Origin: a virus
DNA length: 21,062 nt
Virus record (IMG/VR): IMGVR_UViG_3300028925_013600
Coordinates: 1 to 21,062 of that record
Reading direction: 5' to 3' (one strand)
Positions within the stretch are counted from its first letter, which is position 1. Each line of letters starts with the position of its first letter. This document shows positions 5,944 through 15,842 of the stretch, piece by piece. The position numbers and the translations under genes were made by a program. Under the pieces are notes generated by a model that was not told the DNA's origin, searched no databases, and saw only the letters and a program-made list of their open reading frames with translations.

Positions 5944-6660
5944 TTACGATGATTGTAGTTGTACCAAATAGTATGTTGATGTAAATGTCTTGCCTGTAAA
6001 TGATACTCTTGAAAGACCTGCTTCAGAAATTTCTATTTTACCGGTAGCGGCATCTTTATTTGCTTGAAGTATTTCTTTAAACAATGTAGATGAGAAGCAA
6101 ATAACGCCCATGTCCGTGCTGTCTGGCGCATCCATGTCAAATTTAATTCTATTAGTATTGATCGATGAATAATTCATAATCATTTCTACCTTTCCATTAG
6201 AACATTTAATTCCAAAGTTTTCTGATTCTGGCAATGCATTCTTTGCTTTGATAAATTTATTTCTAAATGCATCTGTGATATCAATCGATGTATTCCAGTC
6301 CGGCGTATTCTTAAGGTCCGGCACCTGTCTAATTACAGATAGATCTGCCAACATAAATGTCATATCAACATCCTTGTCATTGGCATTAAAACTAACTGCA
6401 GTCTTATCTACTGTATTTATATTAACGGTCAGGTCTTCGCCTACAGCTGTTAACATTTTTACCAATTGAGGTGTGGCATACACGCCTAATTCATTATTAC
6501 CTAGATCTAGGTTAGATGCATTAATATGGCCTATCACGTTCTGATCATCTGTGATGAATTCAGTTTGTAATGTGCCATCAGCTGCTATCCATTTCACTGA
6601 TGTGGTCGCGCCGGCGAGATGATACCGGCCGACGAAATTTAATAAGTCGCTTTTTTTCAT
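5944..6660 (-). CDS. Sliding clamp (T4 gp45-like processivity factor)
   Basis: A 238-residue protein similar in length to T4 gp45 (228). It has the clamp-like two-domain organisation: an N-terminal half with MKKSDLLNFVGRYH and repeated strand patterns, and a C-terminal half with the strand/helix block ICFSSTLFKEILQANKD and the terminal YYLVQLQ. It would form the trimeric ring that tethers the DNA polymerase and, in T4-type phages, also takes part in late transcription. The ATG overlaps the stop of the dpdA-like gene as ATGA, so the clamp is coupled to the DNA-modification gene upstream. Assigned from pattern and from context (clamp loader, polymerase); sequence conservation in this family is low. 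Confidence 0.88.
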   Translation of the reverse strand: MKKSDLLNFVGRYHLAGATTSVKWIAADGTLQTEFITDDQNVIGHINASNLDLGNNELGVYATPQLVKMLTAVGEDLTVNINTVDKTAVSFNANDKDVDMTFMLADLSVIRQVPDLKNTPDWNTSIDITDAFRNKFIKAKNALPESENFGIKCSNGKVEMIMNYSSINTNRIKFDMDAPDSTDMGVICFSSTLFKEILQANKDAATGKIEISEAGLSRVSFTGKTFTSTYYLVQLQSS

Positions 6661-7901
6661 TTTTCTACTTTTTCTTCAAAGAATTGATTAAATATATCCT
6701 TGTTAATTGTTGTAATACTCTGTCCTCCAAACCTCTGATAATATTGTTTATATTTTTCATAGGTAGTGATCGCCGCATCTGGATCTTCAAACATTTCATA
6801 TATACTTTTTAATACTGCAGCTAAATTATTTGGAACAACATATTGAGCAACTTCTCTATGAGCGGCTACTATCTTGTTCACTTCTTTTATTGTATGATCA
6901 AATACATGCACATTATGTAATACCATTCTAGGCACTGCCGATGAATTATAATCATTTAGCATATCCCATGTAAAATCTTTACAAGCTGGACAATCTAAAC
7001 TACATGGCACTAACTGATCAGGCGCATCTAATAGATCTAGTTTTGCTATATTACCGTCTTCATCTTTTGCTCCTTTTGGCATATATACATCTGTAAACGA
7101 TAATTTCTTAAAGTTATGTGAATGTAAATAAGTACCATATACCGGATATTGACCGGGTGAACTTGAATCAGTTGTTACTACAATCCTATTTCCATAATGT
7201 TTATTCAAACATTTTTGTATTGTTGATAAAATAAAGAAATCTGATATTTTTGAAATGCCTAGCAAATGCAGGTATTCTAAATTTACCTTTTCAAATTCTC
7301 TATTCTTTAACATTAATGCTAATGCCCACATGAAGTCTACTAACTTCTGCGGACCTCCAATTGCCCAACCTTGGAATTCAAAATGCTTAAATTTCTGATA
7401 CCACCAATCATACTCTTGCGGATTAGATCCTTGCAACATATTTAAGTATTTTGTTTTTCCTGTCTGGTTCTTTTCAAACCAAGCAAAATTATCAAAACTA
7501 ATATCTGCACATTCATAAAATCTATTTTCATAAACTGTCTTAGGTGGTATATCTAAATTAGCAGCAACATCTGAATTGGCTTCTAACCAATGGAATATCT
7601 TTTCACGTAAGTCATCACTATATTTTAATGCTCCGGTTGCTATCTGATATCCACCCGAGTCTCCAAATACTAATGAATCTTTACCTAATCCAAATTGATC
7701 ACGTATATCCATTTTCTTATAATAATGCCCTGCTGTTATTAGAAAATTCTTATGTCTAAATTCTTCTGGATAACTATCATCATAGAACCTACATGTAGTT
7801 CCATTTGTTAATTTTGTATCCTTAATCAACGACGACGCAAAGCCTCCGGCTGATAGAGACGGGAAGTAAATGAACTCTTTTTGTTTTTCTTTATTTTCCA
7901 T
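6657..7901 (-). CDS. dpdA: DpdA-like TGT-family protein (7-deazaguanine DNA transglycosylase)
   Basis: A 414-residue protein with the fold markers of tRNA-guanine transglycosylase: DSGGYQ (81-86, the substrate-recognition Asp), GWAIGG (178-183), a HLLGI strand (212-216), a candidate nucleophile D245 in TTDSSSPG, and a zinc site C300/C304/C307 with H329 or H332. The Cys spacing is C-x3-C-x2-C, not the C-x1-C-x2-C of bacterial TGT. It has no PUA-like RNA domain and the context is phage DNA replication, so it matches DpdA, which exchanges guanine for a 7-deazaguanine in DNA, rather than a tRNA enzyme. FolE, QueD and QueE in the same window supply the precursor pathway. It overlaps the glycosyltransferase by 11 nt and is coupled to the sliding clamp by ATGA. 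A tRNA-directed role cannot be fully excluded. Confidence 0.88.
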   Translation of the reverse strand: MENKEKQKEFIYFPSLSAGGFASSLIKDTKLTNGTTCRFYDDSYPEEFRHKNFLITAGHYYKKMDIRDQFGLGKDSLVFGDSGGYQIATGALKYSDDLREKIFHWLEANSDVAANLDIPPKTVYENRFYECADISFDNFAWFEKNQTGKTKYLNMLQGSNPQEYDWWYQKFKHFEFQGWAIGGPQKLVDFMWALALMLKNREFEKVNLEYLHLLGISKISDFFILSTIQKCLNKHYGNRIVVTTDSSSPGQYPVYGTYLHSHNFKKLSFTDVYMPKGAKDEDGNIAKLDLLDAPDQLVPCSLDCPACKDFTWDMLNDYNSSAVPRMVLHNVHVFDHTIKEVNKIVAAHREVAQYVVPNNLAAVLKSIYEMFEDPDAAITTYEKYKQYYQRFGGQSITTINKDIFNQFFEEKVEK

Positions 7902-8949
7902 TAAATAATACCTTTTTTAATCCACTGCATGAGAAATAATTTTTATGCAATGTATCTGCTAATTGTTTTAATTTTCCTGTTTCTACTATTGTATCATAAC
8001 GAGTCATCCATATACGAATCTCTTGCACTAATCGATCTTTATATTTAAGATATGATTCCCATGACTCTGTCCACTCACTTGGATATTTGAACTCCTCTGA
8101 GTACATTTCTGTATAACTTAACCTATCTGGTACCATTGGTATTGCGCCGGCTAATGCTCCTTCGTAACATGAAATTCCTAATGTCTCTTGAACATTTGCA
8201 GAAAATACCATTTTAGACCTTTCTAATAGATCATGATATTGTTCCTTTGTAAAATTATGTCTTTGACACATAATAAATTTATACTCCGGAAGTGCTTTTG
8301 CTAGGTCTTCAAATATCTCAGGCTGTTTCTCTGGAGCTATCCTATGAGGAAATAATATAATATCTTCTTTCTTCTTTGGCGTAAACATCGTATGAAGATA
8401 TTCCATTGGCCACCCTGTTCGGAAACATTCAATATCACCATAACCAAAATTCTCTCTAAACATCTTTAAATGGTCATCTGACGCAAACCAGTTGTAATCT
8501 ATTGCTTGAGCTAATGATTTTTCAAATGTCTTAACCCAGGTATCTTTTATAAGCCTACCTAAGAAATCATTTGGGTCATAATTGCCTGCATGCCAAAGGC
8601 CATGAATCTTAATTGGTATTTCTAACAATTGACTCATATATTTTAATTGAATGATACTTGGATTCCATGCATCAGTATAAACAAAATGATCGCCTGGCTT
8701 AACTTTGTTCTCACAAAACAATCTACTAAGCTTGACCGTTTGAGCACTCTTATAAATATTAGTACCTCCAAAGTTTAAAAATGCGCCTGGAGTCGTTGCT
8801 GCTGGAATATCTGTAGGCCCTTCTATGACCTCTATATTATACTCATTGGGGTAGCTATTTGCGCGCAGCATTTCCGGGAAATGTTTTTTCCATTGGCCAG
8901 TATATCTACTTTCTACTGCCTCTAAATCTATTATCCAAATGTTATTCAT
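7891..8949 (-). CDS. GT-B glycosyltransferase (GT4-like, QTMAN-like C-terminal half)
   Basis: A 352-residue GT-B glycosyltransferase. The N-terminal half starts with a Rossmann strand (NIWIIDLEAVESRYTGQW). The C-terminal half has ILFPHRIAPEKQPEIF, a central FSANVQETLGISCYEGALAG block with the acidic GT4 nucleotide-sugar motif, and PMVPDRLSYTEMY. From memory, these three blocks resemble the C-terminal domain of tRNA-queuosine mannosyltransferase (GTDC1/QTMAN: PHRW...KDPE, STA.HEFFGVA.LEA, a P...L.YPE segment). The acceptor is unknown; its overlap with dpdA suggests a 7-deazaguanine base in DNA. Start: a longer frame begins at 9027, but the ATG at 8949 begins at the first Rossmann strand and overlaps the upstream stop by only 8 nt. 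No strong SD is visible. Confidence 0.85.
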   Translation of the reverse strand: MNNIWIIDLEAVESRYTGQWKKHFPEMLRANSYPNEYNIEVIEGPTDIPAATTPGAFLNFGGTNIYKSAQTVKLSRLFCENKVKPGDHFVYTDAWNPSIIQLKYMSQLLEIPIKIHGLWHAGNYDPNDFLGRLIKDTWVKTFEKSLAQAIDYNWFASDDHLKMFRENFGYGDIECFRTGWPMEYLHTMFTPKKKEDIILFPHRIAPEKQPEIFEDLAKALPEYKFIMCQRHNFTKEQYHDLLERSKMVFSANVQETLGISCYEGALAGAIPMVPDRLSYTEMYSEEFKYPSEWTESWESYLKYKDRLVQEIRIWMTRYDTIVETGKLKQLADTLHKNYFSCSGLKKVLFNGK

Positions 8950-9391
8950 GTCTATCGTATTTATAATCGTCTGGTGTAACTTTTTGCATATTTTGTATAC
9001 TCGCGCAATATAAACTATATGGCGCATGTATAACTTTTATACTATCATTTTGCTTTAATAAGCCAACTTCTTCTTCTTCCAACATATACATGATATGGGT
9101 CTTAATCCTAATCATTGGAGGGATGCATTTTAACATACCAGGTGTACATTCTAAACTAATTGTTATACCTGTACTATCAATAAAACTATTCATCCAATCC
9201 CAATCTAATTTACTTTGATTTTTCATATCATTAGTAATTAATTGTTCTACTGCTCCAGAACAAAAATAGATATGAGGAACTTTCTCTAAATTAACGCCTT
9301 TTACTAATATATCAGCAATGAACAATGTTTCTACATCTGTTAATCTGCCTTCACATTCTTTTCCGTACCAATGTTTTCTAAATCCTATCAT
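8942..9391 (-). CDS. Unknown protein heading the dpdA transcript (149 aa)
   Basis: I do not recognise this 149-residue protein. It has no membrane segment or coiled coil. Visible features are WYGKECEGRLTDVE near the N-terminus, a GITISLECTPGMLKCIPP segment with Cys and Pro, a MLEEEE acidic patch, and five cysteines in all (residues 13, 44, 82, 89 and 129), too scattered for an obvious metal site. It is the first gene after the promoter at 9409-9438 and overlaps the glycosyltransferase by 8 nt, which overlaps dpdA by 11 nt. It is therefore a candidate partner in DNA modification, by context only. Confidence 0.75.
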   Translation of the reverse strand: MIGFRKHWYGKECEGRLTDVETLFIADILVKGVNLEKVPHIYFCSGAVEQLITNDMKNQSKLDWDWMNSFIDSTGITISLECTPGMLKCIPPMIRIKTHIMYMLEEEEVGLLKQNDSIKVIHAPYSLYCASIQNMQKVTPDDYKYDRHE

Positions 9392-9408
9392 TTTTTCTTA
9401 TTATCTTT

Positions 9409-9438
9409 AATATAAGTAATTTTCTGCAAACAACCTAA
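9409..9438 (-). promoter_or_regulatory. Promoter, TTAGGT-N18-TATATT
   Basis: On the minus strand TTAGGT (9433-9438) and TATATT (9409-9414) are 18 nt apart, upstream of the unknown gene that leads the glycosyltransferase/dpdA/clamp run. The -10 ends 17 nt before the ATG at 9391, giving a leader of roughly 10 nt. Confidence 0.75.
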
Positions 9439-9458
9439 TAATTCCATCTAAATGTTAA

Positions 9459-9782
9459 TTATTTTTTTAAAATATCCGTATTTGGATTGATTGTTTTATC
9501 TAATTTATGCACCACTTCCCAGACATTGTCAAAACGTCTATCAGTACTACTTTCTAATTGAACTTGATACTCATCAATTCTGTTGTGAATCTCTTGATCA
9601 CCGGTGCATCTATCTCTAGACTCATATTCAATCTGTTTATTCGCATCATTGTGTATATCGTTCATCTCTGTTCTTACAAGTTCCAGATCTACGACCCTTC
9701 TACTCAACCTTATTACAGCCGCAACCGCGTACGCTAACGCACCGACCCCAACTGTACTTAAAACTGTCATTATTGTTTCCAT
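9459..9782 (-). CDS. Small membrane-anchored coiled-coil protein (107 aa)
   Basis: One N-terminal hydrophobic helix (about residues 4-25, TVLSTVGVGALAYAVAAVI) is followed by a basic RLSRR boundary and then a charged helical tail rich in Glu, Asp, Asn and Gln (about 30-95) with heptad-like spacing, typical of a coiled coil. The protein is probably anchored in the inner membrane with a cytoplasmic helical domain; function unknown. The start is well supported: AAGGAA 6 nt upstream of the ATG at 9782. It lies 33 nt downstream of DNA polymerase, and the promoter for the next gene lies after its stop, so it appears to end the polymerase transcript. Confidence 0.75.
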   Translation of the reverse strand: METIMTVLSTVGVGALAYAVAAVIRLSRRVVDLELVRTEMNDIHNDANKQIEYESRDRCTGDQEIHNRIDEYQVQLESSTDRRFDNVWEVVHKLDKTINPNTDILKK

Positions 9783-9815
9783 ATTTTTCCTTTATTTTTA
9801 ATTGACGGAACTATT

Positions 9816-12293
9816 TTAGTTGAATGCAAAAAACTTACCTAAATTATTATTTTCGGGGATCGACCCCCATTTCATTGCACTATAAAAATCATTCAATTTA
9901 TTTGAAAATGCTGATTTGAATATTTTATTATAGTCTATATTGTCTTGGACGAACTTTTCTATTGCAGCTGGATCATCAAATCCTTTTAATGCCATTGTCT
10001 CTAAATTCATTGAATTGGGTTTAAGATATGTCCATTTAATCTTTTCGCCATTTATAACGCCACGTACTGTTTTTATTTTATGATGACGTAACATATCATT
10101 ATAATTTAATGCTGACTTAACATGGACTGGTGTGCCTTTCATTCTCACTGCAAATGGCGCATCTCCTTTCCTAGTATATTTTTTTACATTTTTGCACCCT
10201 ATAGGAAACATTACATCCATTAGTCCCAATGTCTTCATATGTTCTTTAAAGGCCAAAATCTTAGCATCCAATGTTACCTTATCAATATCATTCAACATAT
10301 CTTCTAACACCTCTGCCATAAATTTTCTGAAGGACGGCGGGAATGATGATCTCACAACATCCAAGCCTTTCACATCTAATTTTGATACGGTATGGCCCTC
10401 GACATTAATTATCCATTGGGCATATCTTTTCTTTGCAATCCATAGACCAGCCTTAGCAACATTTTCTTGCTTTATATCAAATCTATGAACATCTACATTA
10501 TGAAATCGCTTGCCGTATATATCATATGATCTATTCATAAAGTCTTGCACCTGATCTGCAATTTCAATCGTTTTATCGGCCATCCATTTTTCATCTGTTA
10601 TGTCATATTCTGGATAACGTTTTTCTATTAATGGCAATGACGAAAAGAATACAGAATCCGTATCTATATAAATATTATAGTCCTTTTTCTTGCCCAACTC
10701 CCTAGCATAGAAATTATTTCCTACATCTGCTGTAAATTTAATTAATTGCTGGCCGGTACTTGTAATTGCAACTGCATTATCTGGGTCAAAGAATCTGAAA
10801 CTTGGATTACCCAATACTCCGTAGAATGAATTTAAGAGAATTTTAGTTACTAACTGCATCCTATCAAAATATTCCGCCTTCGCCAGGTCTCCCTCCTTTT
10901 CATACTTCTTTCTTAAGTTTTTATATTCAACTCTTTCATCAAACCACTTATCCAAAATACTTGGCAGGAATCCTTTTATCTGTGTATCATATACAACGCC
11001 ATTTGCTGCAATTGAATATTTATTCTTTTCTAGATAATCTCTTAGGTCTTGACTAGTCTCCCACCCATTCCATTGATCGGAATAATGTTGCCCGGTATTC
11101 TTTACATATCCTTTAGGGTCAAAGTTATCTAATTTAGTCACTTTAGTTTCTGGGGATATGTTAAGTGTCATAATAATACTAGGATACAGTGATGTCAAGT
11201 CAAGGTCATATACCCATTTATAACGACCCGCATTCGGAGCCTTAACATATGCTCCTAACAGTTCAACGCTTTCTCCCCTAGGAGGTCTACTTGGCGAAAC
11301 AATATTCTGTCGTTTCATATATGTTAATGCTGCGCCATCTAAGTATCGAGTCGGAAATAAGAAGTCTTCATATGGAACATGGCCTTTATGACATATACTT
11401 CGAGCCAGATCCATCAATTTCATCTTTTGATCAATTTCCCATACTAGATCAACATCATTCATATTATAGTCAATGTAGCCTTGGATATCATTTTTCATTA
11501 AATCATCTAAGGTTCCTTCATACTTCATCTTACCTTTACCTAATTCTTTTTGAGATATAGCTTCTAATGAATAACTAGATTCTTGATTATAGGTAAAGTT
11601 TTTATACAATGCCATATAATCTAAACATGACACTCCGGAGATTCTATACCTGTTTCTATGTTTTAACCAAATGACATCATTAATTGGAGACAATGTCCTT
11701 GCTTGCTTCTCACCCAATATCTTCACCATTCTATTATAAATGTAAGGGATATCAAAGAAATCAATGTTCCAGCCAGTAATTAAAGTAGGTTGTATTTCAT
11801 AATACTTGAACAAGAACTTACTCAATAATGTATGTTCATCTATACACGAGGTTACTTCATATCCAGGCTTTGTCATATTATCAACAACCTGGTCCTTGTC
11901 TAGAATCCACACACACCTCTGATCACCTGCCTCATCATATATTGCAATTGAAGTGACTTCATTCTGAGCTTCTTCTGGAGTCGGATAGCCAGAAGCAATA
12001 TCTACCTCAATATCAATAAATAATGGCCTGTGGCCGGTAGATGCTTCATCTGAGTCTGTATACATATCAATCAATGTACGCATTTCCGGGTTTATATCAT
12101 TTTCATATAACCCTCTTTCTTCTTGATCTGGATTCTCTATTCTCTGAACTGTCTGTCCATCTAACGCAACTAAACTGCCATATTGCGACTTTCTATAAGC
12201 ATATGGCTTATAATTAACTGTAATATGACCTTTCTTGTCATCCCAGATATGTACCTTGTTAGTACGTTTATGATATGCTATTGCTTGATACAT
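9816..12293 (-). CDS. DNA polymerase, family B (T4 gp43-like)
   Basis: An 825-residue replicative polymerase, somewhat shorter than T4 gp43 (898). The 3'-5' exonuclease domain has ExoI FIDIEV (around residue 93), ExoII GWNIDFFDIPYI (around 176) and ExoIII YNMNDVDLV (around 278). The polymerase domain has motif A DLDLTSLYPSI (around 364), motif B KILLNSFYGVLGNPS (around 486) and motif C YIDTDSVFF (around 545), with all catalytic Asp residues. The N-terminal MYQAIAYHKRTNKVHIWDD block is typical of gp43-like enzymes. It synthesises phage DNA with the sliding clamp and loader encoded in this window. There is no intein or split, unlike some phage polymerases. The ATG lies 16 nt after the GT8 stop; no SD is visible. 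Confidence 0.97.
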   Translation of the reverse strand: MYQAIAYHKRTNKVHIWDDKKGHITVNYKPYAYRKSQYGSLVALDGQTVQRIENPDQEERGLYENDINPEMRTLIDMYTDSDEASTGHRPLFIDIEVDIASGYPTPEEAQNEVTSIAIYDEAGDQRCVWILDKDQVVDNMTKPGYEVTSCIDEHTLLSKFLFKYYEIQPTLITGWNIDFFDIPYIYNRMVKILGEKQARTLSPINDVIWLKHRNRYRISGVSCLDYMALYKNFTYNQESSYSLEAISQKELGKGKMKYEGTLDDLMKNDIQGYIDYNMNDVDLVWEIDQKMKLMDLARSICHKGHVPYEDFLFPTRYLDGAALTYMKRQNIVSPSRPPRGESVELLGAYVKAPNAGRYKWVYDLDLTSLYPSIIMTLNISPETKVTKLDNFDPKGYVKNTGQHYSDQWNGWETSQDLRDYLEKNKYSIAANGVVYDTQIKGFLPSILDKWFDERVEYKNLRKKYEKEGDLAKAEYFDRMQLVTKILLNSFYGVLGNPSFRFFDPDNAVAITSTGQQLIKFTADVGNNFYARELGKKKDYNIYIDTDSVFFSSLPLIEKRYPEYDITDEKWMADKTIEIADQVQDFMNRSYDIYGKRFHNVDVHRFDIKQENVAKAGLWIAKKRYAQWIINVEGHTVSKLDVKGLDVVRSSFPPSFRKFMAEVLEDMLNDIDKVTLDAKILAFKEHMKTLGLMDVMFPIGCKNVKKYTRKGDAPFAVRMKGTPVHVKSALNYNDMLRHHKIKTVRGVINGEKIKWTYLKPNSMNLETMALKGFDDPAAIEKFVQDNIDYNKIFKSAFSNKLNDFYSAMKWGSIPENNNLGKFFAFN

Positions 12294-12309
12294 TAAATTA
12301 ATTTTTCGA

Positions 12310-13101
12310 TTATAATTGGTTTAATTCGTTATTATATTCTTTCCATAGGTTATTAAATAAACTGCCATCTAACGAATATTGTTCATTATTCATTACCGTT
12401 TCCCACGGTTTTACCATCATTTTTCTTCCTGGGGGAGGTAACGCTCCTGACCATGATAATATACATGTGCCTGTGGGTATCTCTCCAGAGTTTGAATAAT
12501 TATATGCCCAATTATAAATTTCTGGGATATTATTATACGTGCCACCCAATACTTCATTCATAACTTGTTGATCATTTATTCTAAATACTGTATTGGTATT
12601 AGATATTTTATCTATAAATTGATCATATATATTAGGGTTATTAATTTTCCAATCTTTGCCAATAACAAATAATGATGTATTAGCGCCAAGATCTCCACCG
12701 GTGCATGCCGAAATACGATCTAACGGGGCGTCTTCAATCATATTAGAAATGTCTTTTAAACATAATAAGTCGGCATCCATATATACAACTTTATCATAAC
12801 CTTGTTGTCTAAACACTTCAAATGCCATAAAACATGCTCGATGTGTTTCATACATGACTTTGCAGTTAGAATATGCCGGTTGGATAATTTCTTCAAATTC
12901 CATATGTGGAACTATTTTTAATATTTGTTGTTTATGGACATCAGATAATTTACATACTCTTTCATTAGTTAAAAGTTTAAAGTGGTATGAGTCAAAATCT
13001 CTAAGATGTTTTTTTAACGAAAATATATGTGTTAGTCCGCCGGCGAAGAATCTATCATCAAATGCCATTGTTATTAAAATATTTTGTTTATTTTGTATCA
13101 T
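12310..13101 (-). CDS. GT-A glycosyltransferase, GT8 (glycogenin-like) type
   Basis: A 263-residue protein with the GT8 pattern: an N-terminal NILITMAFDDRFF strand and donor loop, a helix with THRACFMAFEVF, the metal-binding DxD motif in VVYMDADLLCLKDI (around residues 106-119), an NTSLFVI segment, DQQVMNEVLGG and WAYNY toward the acceptor side. It would use a UDP- or related sugar; the acceptor is unknown. It overlaps the HPRT stop by 14 nt and follows FolE/HPRT, so it is co-expressed with the deazaguanine genes. It is distinct in fold from the GT-B enzyme beside dpdA. Candidates for the acceptor include modified DNA, a phage protein or the cell surface; the sequence does not decide. Confidence 0.85.
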   Translation of the reverse strand: MIQNKQNILITMAFDDRFFAGGLTHIFSLKKHLRDFDSYHFKLLTNERVCKLSDVHKQQILKIVPHMEFEEIIQPAYSNCKVMYETHRACFMAFEVFRQQGYDKVVYMDADLLCLKDISNMIEDAPLDRISACTGGDLGANTSLFVIGKDWKINNPNIYDQFIDKISNTNTVFRINDQQVMNEVLGGTYNNIPEIYNWAYNYSNSGEIPTGTCILSWSGALPPPGRKMMVKPWETVMNNEQYSLDGSLFNNLWKEYNNELNQL

Positions 13102-13612
13102 GACCTGAATTTAGTTTGTAAATATTTCTATAATTTCTCTTTAATGAATTATCATCTAATCCATAACCTACTACCCACTCATCATCTATTTCAAAACAAA
13201 AATGATCTACCGGCGGACTATCTTTTTTACGTTTAAGCAATGTAACAACTTTTACGTCTGCCGGTTTCATATCATTTACTATTAATAGGATTTCAAACAT
13301 CGTCTTGCCGGTATCTACTATATCATCGATAATATAAACACGCTTTCCTTTACAATGAATCTCCAAATCTTTTGTAATTGTAACTCCACCCGAATTATCT
13401 TTTCCTACATATGATTTAGCTCTAATGAAATCCATTTGTACATCGATTCCCATATCCTTCATTAGATCTGCAAAAAATGCATAGCCGCCGTTAAGTACAC
13501 ATATCATAACTGGTGGTAAGGTGCTCCCAGATGCTTTGTGCTCTTCTGATATTGCATGGGCTAATGCCCTAACACGTCTTTCTATTTTATATTCTGGTAT
13601 TAAAATCTCCAT
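13088..13612 (-). CDS. hpt: Hypoxanthine-guanine phosphoribosyltransferase
   Basis: A 174-residue purine phosphoribosyltransferase of usual bacterial length. The PRPP-binding motif YIIDDIVDTGKT (93-104) with catalytic Asp is intact, the substrate-pocket region DEWVVGYGLDD (144-154) is the classic HPRT C-terminal block, and the N-terminal loop reads VLNGG where HPRTs usually have LKGG/LKGS. It joins PRPP with guanine or hypoxanthine to give GMP or IMP. The ATG overlaps the folE stop as TAATG, so the two are co-translated. Context suggests it recycles guanine, including guanine released by a DpdA exchange reaction, into the GTP used by FolE. Preference for guanine over hypoxanthine is not readable from the sequence. 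Confidence 0.93.
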   Translation of the reverse strand: MEILIPEYKIERRVRALAHAISEEHKASGSTLPPVMICVLNGGYAFFADLMKDMGIDVQMDFIRAKSYVGKDNSGGVTITKDLEIHCKGKRVYIIDDIVDTGKTMFEILLIVNDMKPADVKVVTLLKRKKDSPPVDHFCFEIDDEWVVGYGLDDNSLKRNYRNIYKLNSGHDTK

Positions 13613-14268
13613 TAGTAACCTCTTACAAATTCATAATATTCATTTCTTGTAGCTGCATCAGCTTTAAATGCGCCAGTCAATTTACTAGTCTTCATACTTG
13701 CACCGCCATGTTTAACACCTCTACATTGTACACAATTATGAGTTGCATCAATCATTACTGCTACACCTGCATTATCTTCAATAATAGTATCCATTGCATT
13801 ATGAATGGCTACAGTTAACTGTTCTTGAATAGCACCTCTACGAGCAAAATGTTCTACTAATCTATTTAATTTTGACAGCCCTATCACATGACTATCCTTA
13901 CCTGGAATATATGCTACATGGACCTTTCCCATAATAGTCTGATGATGATGTGAACACATACTAGTTAAAGGAATGCCGCCTTCAAATACCATACCATCGT
14001 ACCCATCACTAGGGAAGGTTGTTATAGTCGGCGGGGCTTCATACCGGCCGGCCCATAAATCATTTACATATGCCTTTGCAACTCTATAAGGAGTCTTATC
14101 TGAGTTAGGGTCGTTCTTCCAATCAACTTTCAGTGCATCTAAAAACTTCCCAAATGCTTGTTCGGCCGCAAAAATCATATCTAGCTTTTCTTGTTCTGTC
14201 AAAGGCCGGCCTTTTGCAACACCATTCGCAAATCCTTCCTTTACTAGTTCTAAATTTAATCCGTCCAT
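13612..14268 (-). CDS. folE: GTP cyclohydrolase I
   Basis: A 218-residue enzyme of standard FolE length. Zinc ligands C105, H108 and C179 (in MCSHHH and HNCVQC) are present, along with the conserved GKVHVAYIP, VIGLSKLNRLVEHFARR and the C-terminal RNEYYEFVR end. It converts GTP to 7,8-dihydroneopterin triphosphate, the shared first step of folate, biopterin and 7-deazaguanine synthesis. With QueD and QueE upstream in the same run, deazaguanine synthesis is the likely purpose. Start at ATG 14268, 1 nt after the groES stop; the downstream hpt gene starts in its TAATG. Confidence 0.96.
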   Translation of the reverse strand: MDGLNLELVKEGFANGVAKGRPLTEQEKLDMIFAAEQAFGKFLDALKVDWKNDPNSDKTPYRVAKAYVNDLWAGRYEAPPTITTFPSDGYDGMVFEGGIPLTSMCSHHHQTIMGKVHVAYIPGKDSHVIGLSKLNRLVEHFARRGAIQEQLTVAIHNAMDTIIEDNAGVAVMIDATHNCVQCRGVKHGGASMKTSKLTGAFKADAATRNEYYEFVRGY

Positions 14269-14269
14269 A

Positions 14270-14581
14270 TTACTTAGATATTGAAGTCATTGCTATATCC
14301 GACTCTCGGACTAACACATATGTCTCGTTTTCTAATTTAACCTCATTTCCATTCTTGCCCGATAATTTACTCACAGACGTTAACACAACATCACCTGGCT
14401 TAATTGTCATTGGAATTCTATCACCCGTCTGAGTAAATAATCCTGGTCCGGTATCTACTACATCTGCATAGCCATACGTCTCGCTCGTTGATGATAAGAT
14501 AATTCCGGTTTTAGTTTTTGTAGATACCTCTCGCGCCTTAAGCAAGAGCTGATCTCCCATTGGTTTCATTTTCATATTCAT
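14270..14581 (-). CDS. groES: Co-chaperonin GroES (Hsp10)
   Basis: A 103-residue protein, close to the usual 95-105, with the GroES pattern: MKPMGDQLLLKARE at the N-terminus, a mobile loop centred on KTKTGIIL (the GroEL-binding GGIVL-type tripeptide), DVVDTGPG and IKPGDVVLTSV in the barrel, and a TYVLVRESDI C-terminal strand. It is the lid for GroEL chambers. In T4-type phages a gp31-type lid usually works with host GroEL; here the phage also carries groEL, 10 kb downstream. It lies between queE and folE, 9 nt and 1 nt away, although it has no role in that pathway. The start is ATG 14581 with AAAGAA just upstream; further in-frame ATGs follow at codons 3 and 5. Confidence 0.92.
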   Translation of the reverse strand: MNMKMKPMGDQLLLKAREVSTKTKTGIILSSTSETYGYADVVDTGPGLFTQTGDRIPMTIKPGDVVLTSVSKLSGKNGNEVKLENETYVLVRESDIAMTSISK

Positions 14582-14590
14582 TTCTTTGTA

Positions 14591-15367
14591 TTAAACTGCT
14601 CTTTGTGTATCAAATGCAATAATGTGATCTCTACCCGTCATATTATAACCATGCTCAGCACATAAGTCAAATACTAGAGGATACATTTTAATTAATTGTT
14701 GTCTTTCGTCGCCCGCGGGCATAACATATGTCTTATTTTTAGGGATATCCATTTTTACCCTAAACGCCTCAAATTCATCTAAACACTCTTGTGTTCCATC
14801 CCATACTGGTTTGTAGTGATAATCTTTATGATAATCTAACATCTTTCGAATTGTGTCGTACTTGAGTCGATGCTTATTATGCTGCTTTACAAACCTCTCA
14901 TCAACAACCTTTCCGCCTGGCGTAGTAATGCCTACTTGAGGGACGGAGTTAGAAAACTTAGGACTAAGAGAAATAAGATCAATACGATAATCGGTCTCTA
15001 CAAAATGCGAACCTTCTGTCTCAATAGTAATAATAATACCGCGCTCATTTGCGAAATGCGTAAGTTCATTTATCAACTTTGGTTGCATTGTCGGAGAACC
15101 ACCTGTTAACATCATTTCTTTAATATGTGGGTTCTTATCATAAATGGCAATAATATCATTAAAGCAAAATGTCCCCTTTTCTGGATGTATGGAGCTATAC
15201 CAGCTATCACACCACCCGCCATCACCAAACCAGCAACGATGAGTACAGCCTGTTACTCTAATTGCTATTGTAGGCCTTCCAAATCTACTTCCTTCGCTTT
15301 GTACACACCTATATAATTCATTTATAGGTAATACTTTGTTGTAATCTTCTATTCTTTTATTCGGCAT
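14591..15367 (-). CDS. queE: 7-carboxy-7-deazaguanine synthase (QueE, radical SAM)
   Basis: A 258-residue radical SAM protein with QueE signatures: an N-terminal SEGSRFGRPTIAIRVTGC block, three cluster cysteines C41, C45 and C53, a TGGSP motif (88-92), ETEGS (116-120) and SLSPK (133-137). It converts 6-carboxytetrahydropterin to 7-carboxy-7-deazaguanine. Two departures stand out: the cysteines are spaced C-x3-C-x7-C, with a GDGG insertion, instead of C-x3-C-x2-C, and the SAM-contact motif TGGEP reads TGGSP. Both may mark a phage subfamily. The start overlaps the queD stop by 11 nt, so the two are co-translated, and groES follows 9 nt downstream. Assignment as QueE rests on motifs plus the FolE/QueD context; another radical SAM activity is a small possibility. 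Confidence 0.88.
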   Translation of the reverse strand: MPNKRIEDYNKVLPINELYRCVQSEGSRFGRPTIAIRVTGCTHRCWFGDGGWCDSWYSSIHPEKGTFCFNDIIAIYDKNPHIKEMMLTGGSPTMQPKLINELTHFANERGIIITIETEGSHFVETDYRIDLISLSPKFSNSVPQVGITTPGGKVVDERFVKQHNKHRLKYDTIRKMLDYHKDYHYKPVWDGTQECLDEFEAFRVKMDIPKNKTYVMPAGDERQQLIKMYPLVFDLCAEHGYNMTGRDHIIAFDTQRAV

Positions 15368-15842
15368 ATATTGATGAATTTTTGTCGGCCTCCCAACATT
15401 CTACTTTAACTACTTTTACTCTACCACCACCCGTCTTAGACATAACATCATTAAATTTGTCATACACTAATTTGGCACATGACTCTGCGCCCATCTTATC
15501 CATGACATTTAATTTACAGAGGCCTTCCATTGCAGCTGATTGGAAGAAGTCTAAGTATGGGTCGTCCTTTTCAATTAGTAACGTATGGTCCCACATGCTA
15601 TTCATCCAATCCTTTAATCCATTACCAGGAGTTGGCTTTGCATCTTGTGACTTAAATCCTCCATAGTCCATTATCCAATTCATTTCATCTAATTGCTTTT
15701 CTTCTAATGACTCTTTAGATTCAAACCATACTTTAAATTTTAAAGCATACCCATGCAGCAATTCACAATGAGAATGACTTGCTTTCCATTGTCTCAATGC
15801 TACTGAATAATTGTCGAATACCTTTGTTGACTGATACGTCAT
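15357..15842 (-). CDS. queD: 6-carboxy-5,6,7,8-tetrahydropterin synthase (QueD/PTPS family)
   Basis: A 161-residue PTPS-fold protein. Recognisable elements are ASHSHCELLHG with catalytic Cys C26 and zinc ligands H23 (or H25) and H30, WIMDYGGFK (the MDFGDLK block), WDHTLLI with the D85/H86 catalytic pair, and a C-terminal VKVECWE with the substrate-anchoring Glu. It converts dihydroneopterin triphosphate (from FolE) to 6-carboxytetrahydropterin, the QueE substrate. The usual HGH zinc motif reads HGY (Y32 replaces a His), as I recall in a subgroup of bacterial and phage homologues, so the zinc site is altered. It is the first gene after the promoter at 15860-15889 and overlaps queE by 11 nt. 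Confidence 0.87.
   Translation of the reverse strand: MTYQSTKVFDNYSVALRQWKASHSHCELLHGYALKFKVWFESKESLEEKQLDEMNWIMDYGGFKSQDAKPTPGNGLKDWMNSMWDHTLLIEKDDPYLDFFQSAAMEGLCKLNVMDKMGAESCAKLVYDKFNDVMSKTGGGRVKVVKVECWEADKNSSIYAE

Follow-up and report, generated by a model that had tools for sequence, protein, structure and literature searches.

The window analysed here is the entire record of the viral contig IMGVR_UViG_3300028925_013600, a genome fragment of 21,062 bp that carries a candidate system for 7-deazaguanine modification of DNA. FolE, QueD and QueE, together with a protein of predicted tRNA-guanine transglycosylase (TGT) fold, are encoded on one strand within a T4-like replication cluster, in a run of 12 successive minus-strand genes bounded by QueD (15842) and the sliding clamp gp45 (5944), with spacings of -14 to +67 bp. 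The genes of the module are as follows.

6657-7901, minus strand: DpdA, candidate DNA-guanine transglycosylase (predicted TGT fold; D81, D245, C300/C304/C307, His329).
7891-8949, minus strand: GT4-family glycosyltransferase, 352 aa (GT4 signature; PF00534 in relatives; gene overlaps).
8942-9391, minus strand: orf149, conserved small module protein (kept in relatives; directly before GT4).
13088-13612, minus strand: hypoxanthine-guanine phosphoribosyltransferase, HGPRT (TIGR01203 149.5 bits, cut-off 150; PF00156 E 2.6e-24).
13612-14268, minus strand: FolE, GTP cyclohydrolase I (PF01227 E 5.4e-47; phrog_2197 E 4e-61).
14591-15367, minus strand: QueE, 7-carboxy-7-deazaguanine synthase, radical SAM (phrog_2076 E 7.2e-47, full length; TIGR03365 E 3e-14).
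15357-15842, minus strand: QueD, 6-carboxytetrahydropterin synthase, phage type (phrog_2389 E 3.8e-33; PF01242 E 5.6e-11).

An earlier note on this DNA had read from it a 7-deazaguanine modification system made up of FolE, QueD, QueE and a TGT-like protein with D81, D245 and a Cys3-His site. We found that the three early-pathway enzymes are secure by both PHROG and Pfam profiles, and the gene content of the locus is firm. For the open reading frame (ORF) at 6657-7901 itself, neither Pfam nor PHROG gave a match; phmmer against the PDB sequences returned nothing for this protein or for GT4, and profile searches were weak. An AlphaFold model of DpdA computed from 33 relatives (pLDDT 78, pTM 0.81) showed the TGT (alpha/beta)8 fold (Foldseek E 4.6e-9) and aligned over 307 residues with human QTRT1 (VIA Z 24.0, rmsd 3.7). 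The residues that the note had named were confirmed: the catalytic Asp pair (D81 and D245, with the DSGG motif also present) and a zinc site made up of C300/C304/C307 with a His further along (329/332). D81, D245 and H329 are unchanged across the 33 relatives. The DpdA-family hidden Markov model (HMM) recognized NCTB (6e-39) and KVP40, whose protein is of the DpdA2 type (E 1e-28), and also matched pf16 and Moby, while E. coli Tgt scored E 1e-4 and phage 9g DpdA E 0.025. In a tree, as the note had called for, the window protein fell in a 100/100 clade with marine and freshwater relatives (groups A and B, described below); the deepest branches, those joining Tgt and 9g among them, are long and weakly supported (76/70), and no supported grouping joined the window protein to Tgt. 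By sequence, it is probably not a tRNA Tgt, and the name that fits best is that of a separate DpdA2-like lineage. The PADLOC defence models, for which the presence of dpd models was not checked, gave no match for DpdA, GT4 or orf149 of the window.

The gene before DpdA encodes the GT4-family glycosyltransferase. Its longest ORF starts at 9027 and an ATG lies at 8949; the latter is probably the start, from which the gene overlaps DpdA by 11 bp and orf149 by 8 bp. Residues H146, R229/K234 and E281x7E289 (long-ORF numbering) are invariant in 22 relatives, and the EX7E motif with the R/K diphosphate-binding pair makes up a complete GT4 signature in the window protein. PF00534 (Glycos_transf_1) matched all 22 GT4 members, with a best E of 7.8e-7, and the homologue in phage X1, which lies outside the 22, matched at E 8e-12, above the curated cut-off. 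Motif similarity had raised the suspicion that GT4 belongs to QTMAN, and this assignment was dropped as it found no Pfam support: an HMM scan with the QTMAN N-terminal domain PF12038 gave no match up to E 10 in the 22 members.

We then examined how closely DpdA and GT4 are associated. Relatives of GT4 are encoded in the viral collection by at least 588 stretches, and the loci compared were the best 80 by DpdA and the best 80 by GT4 (160 in total, with few contigs common to both sets). GT4 was present in 78 of the best 80 DpdA-bearing loci, the remaining two being cut inside DpdA, and DpdA was present in 73 of the best 80 GT4-bearing loci, the remaining seven beginning within ~1.2 kb upstream of GT4; every complete neighbourhood among these viral loci has both genes. 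Moreover, in bacterial and archaeal genome records, some of which are clearly phage contigs and others chromosomal scaffolds (Devosia, Shimia, Magnetospirillum), DpdA accompanied GT4 in 20/20 loci (GT4 ≥38% identity, flank not cut by a contig end). The cultured phages PA5oct, ACP17, X1, BUCT-ZZ01 and Phosso all carry DpdA, GT4 and early-pathway genes, with DpdA and GT4 apart in Phosso, and the pair is spread over several DpdA lineages in the tree. These results show that the DpdA-GT4 linkage is near-obligate. The locus is one case of a widespread DpdA-GT4 module that is undescribed in the literature searched, which excluded a 2023 paper on four additional 7-deazaguanines and in which no paper tying DpdA to a glycosyltransferase was found. 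The modification system read by the earlier note is well backed by the TGT fold, by the recurrence of this gene set across hundreds of contigs and by an HMM nearer KVP40 than Tgt, but the note had overlooked the most telling part of the locus, three conserved components, GT4, orf149 and HGPRT.

Several further arrangements were seen around the pair. BUCT-ZZ01 has a second GT4-like protein of 447 aa directly before DpdA (L217:4653-5996), its other GT4 lying after DpdA. In Devosia, Shimia, Sulfitobacter, Pelagibacterium and Azospirillum, GT4 and DpdA have a Vut_1/YhhQ-like transporter gene as a neighbour (L196-L206, L208 and L210 are the bacterial scaffolds with the pair), and a Magnetospirillum chromosomal scaffold has the order GT4-QueD2-DpdA-QueD. 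Such chromosomal pairs may belong to integrated elements or form a DNA-modification system of the cell.

The viral modules fall into three groups. Group A, to which the window belongs, is marine and T4-like, with the order orf149-GT4-DpdA-gp45; group B is from freshwater, with DpdA 61-64% identical and with a PF01467 cytidylyltransferase-like gene and a 116-aa PTPS-like gene, QueD2, between orf149 and GT4; group C, on contigs up to 238 kb, has the order PolB-gp45-DpdA-o175-QueD2-GT4-FolE-PRTase-QueE. We found orf149 in 51 group A/B loci, and its profile resembles two others, that of ACP17 gp122 (E 4e-16) and that of a 175-aa protein encoded in 68 loci of group C (hhalign E 5.5e-6), indicating that it is a core part of the module. 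A reading of its sequence had raised the idea that orf149 might be half a QueE. The orf149 model is confident (pLDDT 92) and had no significant PDB match by Foldseek; its top VIA match was E. coli QueE (Z 4.9, 121 aligned), tied with STAS and clamp-loader folds, and hhalign against phage QueE gave <1%. QueD2 proteins (116-130 aa; PTPS-like HxH pattern, as at L050:8628-8978, L083:13030-13413, L087:7490-7861 and L081:14748-15125) occur in nearly all GT4 modules except those of the window's group; they do not have the usual QueD Cys, and in group B and ACP17 QueD is encoded alongside them. The cysteines of the window QueE (41, 45 and 53) form an unusually spaced CX3CX7C motif, and GGSP replaces the GGEP that group C QueE retains.

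Given that QueC is needed to reach preQ0, its distribution was compared with that of GT4. No PF06508 match was found in the window, as the earlier note had observed, and the search of the wider genome that it had proposed for queC and queF was run on relatives. Full-length QueC was absent from all 38 records of uncultured relatives, up to 238 kb, in which a single 54-residue fragment scored above the cut-off; no QueC reached the cut-off in the complete genomes of PA5oct, ACP17, X1, BUCT-ZZ01 and Phosso, and no QueF did so in 18 records. A QueC gene elsewhere in the genome, one of the options left by the note, is thus unlikely. The group A records are partial, the longest being 130 kb, and therefore the absence of QueC from the window's own phage is likely, short of proven. 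Among 15 complete cultured DpdA phages, QueC was above the curated cut-off in 9/9 without GT4 versus 1/6 with GT4 (Fisher p = 0.002, a value that overstates independence since the phages are related). The one phage with both, PhiXhv-12, has three adjacent genes (L086:2708-5942) for a GAT-QueC-like ORF, an annotated GlcNAc-malate deacetylase and a distantly related GT4, an arrangement that would perhaps serve a sugar-modified archaeosine. A GlmS-type gene had been considered for the ORF beside its glycosyltransferase, and GAT-QueC is the more likely identity because a QueC domain lies inside it. In Stenotrophomonas phage Moby, an annotated inositol-3-phosphate synthase gene lies within a FolE-QueC-DpdA-QueE cluster (L218:3454-4704).

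Other genes of the modules relate to sugar donors, possible acceptors and guanine. A PF01467 cytidylyltransferase-like gene occurs in the modules of group B (25 loci) and group C (3 loci), and group C accessory genes encode UDP-glucose/GDP-mannose dehydrogenase, DegT aminotransferase, Gfo/Idh and alcohol dehydrogenases and HIT proteins, a gene set that would be expected if the phage tailors its own sugar donor. A PIG-L-like gene read by eye in X1 (L087:3876-4523) had no Pfam support and was not used. Thymidylate-synthase-family genes are present in some GT4 phages (PA5oct, Phosso and some contigs), and none was found in the complete ACP17, X1 and BUCT-ZZ01 genomes or in most of the large contigs, several of 163-238 kb among them. 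Because such genes are missing from several complete GT4 genomes, a 5-hydroxymethylated cytosine or uracil made by a thymidylate-synthase-type enzyme is not the general GT4 acceptor. Phosphoribosyltransferase genes recur in the module of all three groups, including most group C loci, and are also found in PA5oct and in BUCT-ZZ01, where the gene is annotated as xanthine-guanine phosphoribosyltransferase and lies between QueE and QueD.

The remaining genes of the run that we annotated are these.

5944-6660, minus strand: sliding clamp, gp45-like, context (sequence reading and place in the replication run).
9816-12293, minus strand: family-B DNA polymerase (PolB), T4 gp43-like, context (tblastn: Microcystis phage Mel-JY01 41%, T4-like phages).
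12310-13101, minus strand: GT8-family glycosyltransferase (PF01501 E 1.8e-8).
14270-14581, minus strand: GroES-like co-chaperonin (PF00166 E 1.4e-18).

The sliding clamp and DpdA genes overlap by 4 bp. The earlier note had placed the modification genes in two separated transcripts flanking the DNA polymerase; this is unsupported, because the genes form a single minus-strand run with gaps of at most 67 bp, in which neither promoter signals nor terminator-like sites (2 seen vs 4.2 expected) rise above chance. A GT8 homologue was absent from all 80 related loci, which rules it out as a core component; judged from this distribution, GT8 next to PolB would be a recent, accessory acquisition and might add a second sugar. 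GroES, which sits between QueE and FolE about 10 kb from the phage GroEL (2521-4137), has no obvious part in the modification pathway.

We propose that the window encodes a QueC-independent, sugar-adding variant of phage 7-deazaguanine DNA modification, a reading that we regard as somewhat better than an even choice. FolE would convert GTP to 7,8-dihydroneopterin triphosphate, QueD would convert this to 6-carboxytetrahydropterin (CPH4), and QueE would convert CPH4 to 7-carboxy-7-deazaguanine (CDG), where the phage pathway would stop unless it borrows host preQ0. DpdA would then place the 7-deazaguanine base in phage DNA in exchange for guanine, and GT4 would add a sugar to this base, most simply on the 7-substituent after insertion; with CDG as the base, the product would be a glycosyl ester. 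Glycosylation is a strong inference. The proposal draws on the DpdA-GT4 linkage, on the company of FolE, QueD and QueE in diverse phages, on the lack of QueC where GT4 occurs, on the donor-side genes, on the GT4 genomes without thymidylate-synthase-family genes, on the GT4 signature and TGT fold, and on the recurring phosphoribosyltransferase. HGPRT is proposed to salvage the guanine released by DpdA by converting it to GMP, and a bulky charged or sugar-bearing base would shield the DNA from host nucleases.

Several observations count against this proposal. Taken alone, the window GT4 matches PF00534 at E 0.036, under the Pfam cut-off, and the Cys3-His site is not kept in DpdA of PA5oct, Phosso, ACP17 and X1. 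PhiXhv-12 combines QueC with a distant GT4 relative, the cultured phages behind the QueC counts are related, QueC was found in 12/14 control genomes, and a host enzyme could supply preQ0. In DNA, a CDG glycosyl ester would be unusual chemistry. The Vut_1/YhhQ-like transporter at the alphaproteobacterial DpdA-GT4 loci also suggests that members may vary in the base they insert, as YhhQ is a known preQ0 transporter.

The alternatives differ in what GT4 and DpdA act on. In one, the modification is plain: DpdA inserts CDG or host-made preQ0, and GT4 works on an unrelated target, for example a glycan on the virion or on the host surface. FolE, QueD, QueE and DpdA would be enough for dCDG, a known phage base, other glycosyltransferases are found nearby in T4-like phages, and the specificity of these enzymes is unreadable from sequence. 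However, this GT4 family is hardly ever met other than next to DpdA or in its company, across several phage lineages and cellular genome records and often with overlapping genes, and its presence tracks the loss of QueC, which is unexpected of an unrelated surface enzyme; we consider this explanation unlikely, with an appreciable chance nonetheless. It is possible that host-made preQ0 is the inserted base, and we give a rather low probability to the fuller form of this idea, in which host QueC finishes preQ0, dPreQ0 or a derivative is the inserted base and GT4 glycosylates the derivative. QueC is common in bacteria, and in alphaproteobacteria host-made preQ0 is favoured because Vut_1/YhhQ-like genes are located next to DpdA and GT4 or in between the two. 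On the other side, DpdA phages without GT4 all carry their own QueC, the nitrile of preQ0 is no obvious glycosyl acceptor, and QueF, as noted above, was below the cut-off.

Two further alternatives take the substrate elsewhere. GT4 might glycosylate a different base in parallel to DpdA, for instance a 5-hydroxymethylpyrimidine, as the known T4-type DNA glycosyltransferases act on 5-hydroxymethylcytosine and PA5oct, Phosso and some contigs have thymidylate-synthase-family genes; the GT4 genomes and large contigs without such genes, and a linkage that is to DpdA, make this improbable. At a slightly smaller chance again, the TGT-like protein would modify tRNA in a queuosine-type pathway, with GT4 as a queuosine glycosyltransferase. 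Its fold is common to tRNA TGT, and animal tRNA has sugar-modified queuosine (PMC12518689), but the family is nearest to DpdA2-type proteins and not Tgt, the gene overlaps the sliding clamp gene in a replication cluster, and the 22 GT4 members have no QTMAN N-terminal Pfam domain. The sugar-adding variant, presumably acting on DNA and with CDG, or else host-made preQ0, as the presumed inserted base, is the reading that we retain.

The proposed system resembles several known ones in part. The nt-1 protein defines DpdA2 (Hutinet et al. 2019, PMC6884629), with which KVP40 goes, and the DpdA2 systems of these Vibrio phages share with the window a TGT-fold transglycosylase and FolE, QueD and QueE in a replication neighbourhood; unlike them, the window has no QueC, has GT4, orf149 and HGPRT, and its DpdA forms part of a separate 100/100 clade. 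The DpdA1/GAT-QueC archaeosine system of phage 9g (PMC6884629) uses the same early pathway and base-exchange logic, but has GAT-QueC and no GT4, and its DpdA is barely similar. CmoX/CmoY of Synechococcus phage S-B43 (PMC12783734) provide a precedent for a carboxyl on a DNA base as the handle for a further group, although there the base is cytosine, the product is an amide and not a sugar conjugate, and the enzymes are unrelated. The queuosine-tRNA mannosyl- and galactosyltransferases QTMAN and QTGAL likewise decorate a TGT-inserted 7-deazaguanine, a conceptual parallel only, as their substrate is tRNA and their acceptor queuine. The T4 alpha- and beta-glucosyltransferases also add sugar to a modified phage DNA base after replication, but they belong to other families, and the T4 base comes from dCMP hydroxymethylase, a member of the thymidylate synthase family that is missing in several complete GT4 phages.

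The known 7-deazaguanine bases of phage DNA include dPreQ0, dPreQ1, dG+, dADG, dCDG, dDG and two preQ1 derivatives, and to our knowledge none of the known ones is decorated with a sugar. We tentatively suggest, at rather less than even confidence, that widespread QueC-less viruses (marine, freshwater and jumbo Pseudomonas phages) and some bacteria replace guanine with a glycosylated 7-deazaguanine, possibly a CDG glycosyl ester, by means of the near-obligate DpdA-GT4 pair, phage-made sugar nucleotides and guanine salvage; this would extend the 7-deazaguanine bases of DNA by one more, the only one so far with a sugar. If true, it would add a class of hypermodification present in hundreds of viral contigs, account for the many 7-deazaguanine phages without QueC and give phage HGPRT genes a testable role. 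The prediction would be checkable now on cultured phages (PA5oct relatives on P. aeruginosa PAO1, ACP17 and BUCT-ZZ01), and the DpdA-GT4 pairs of bacterial chromosomes may represent an unrecognised bacterial DNA-modification system.

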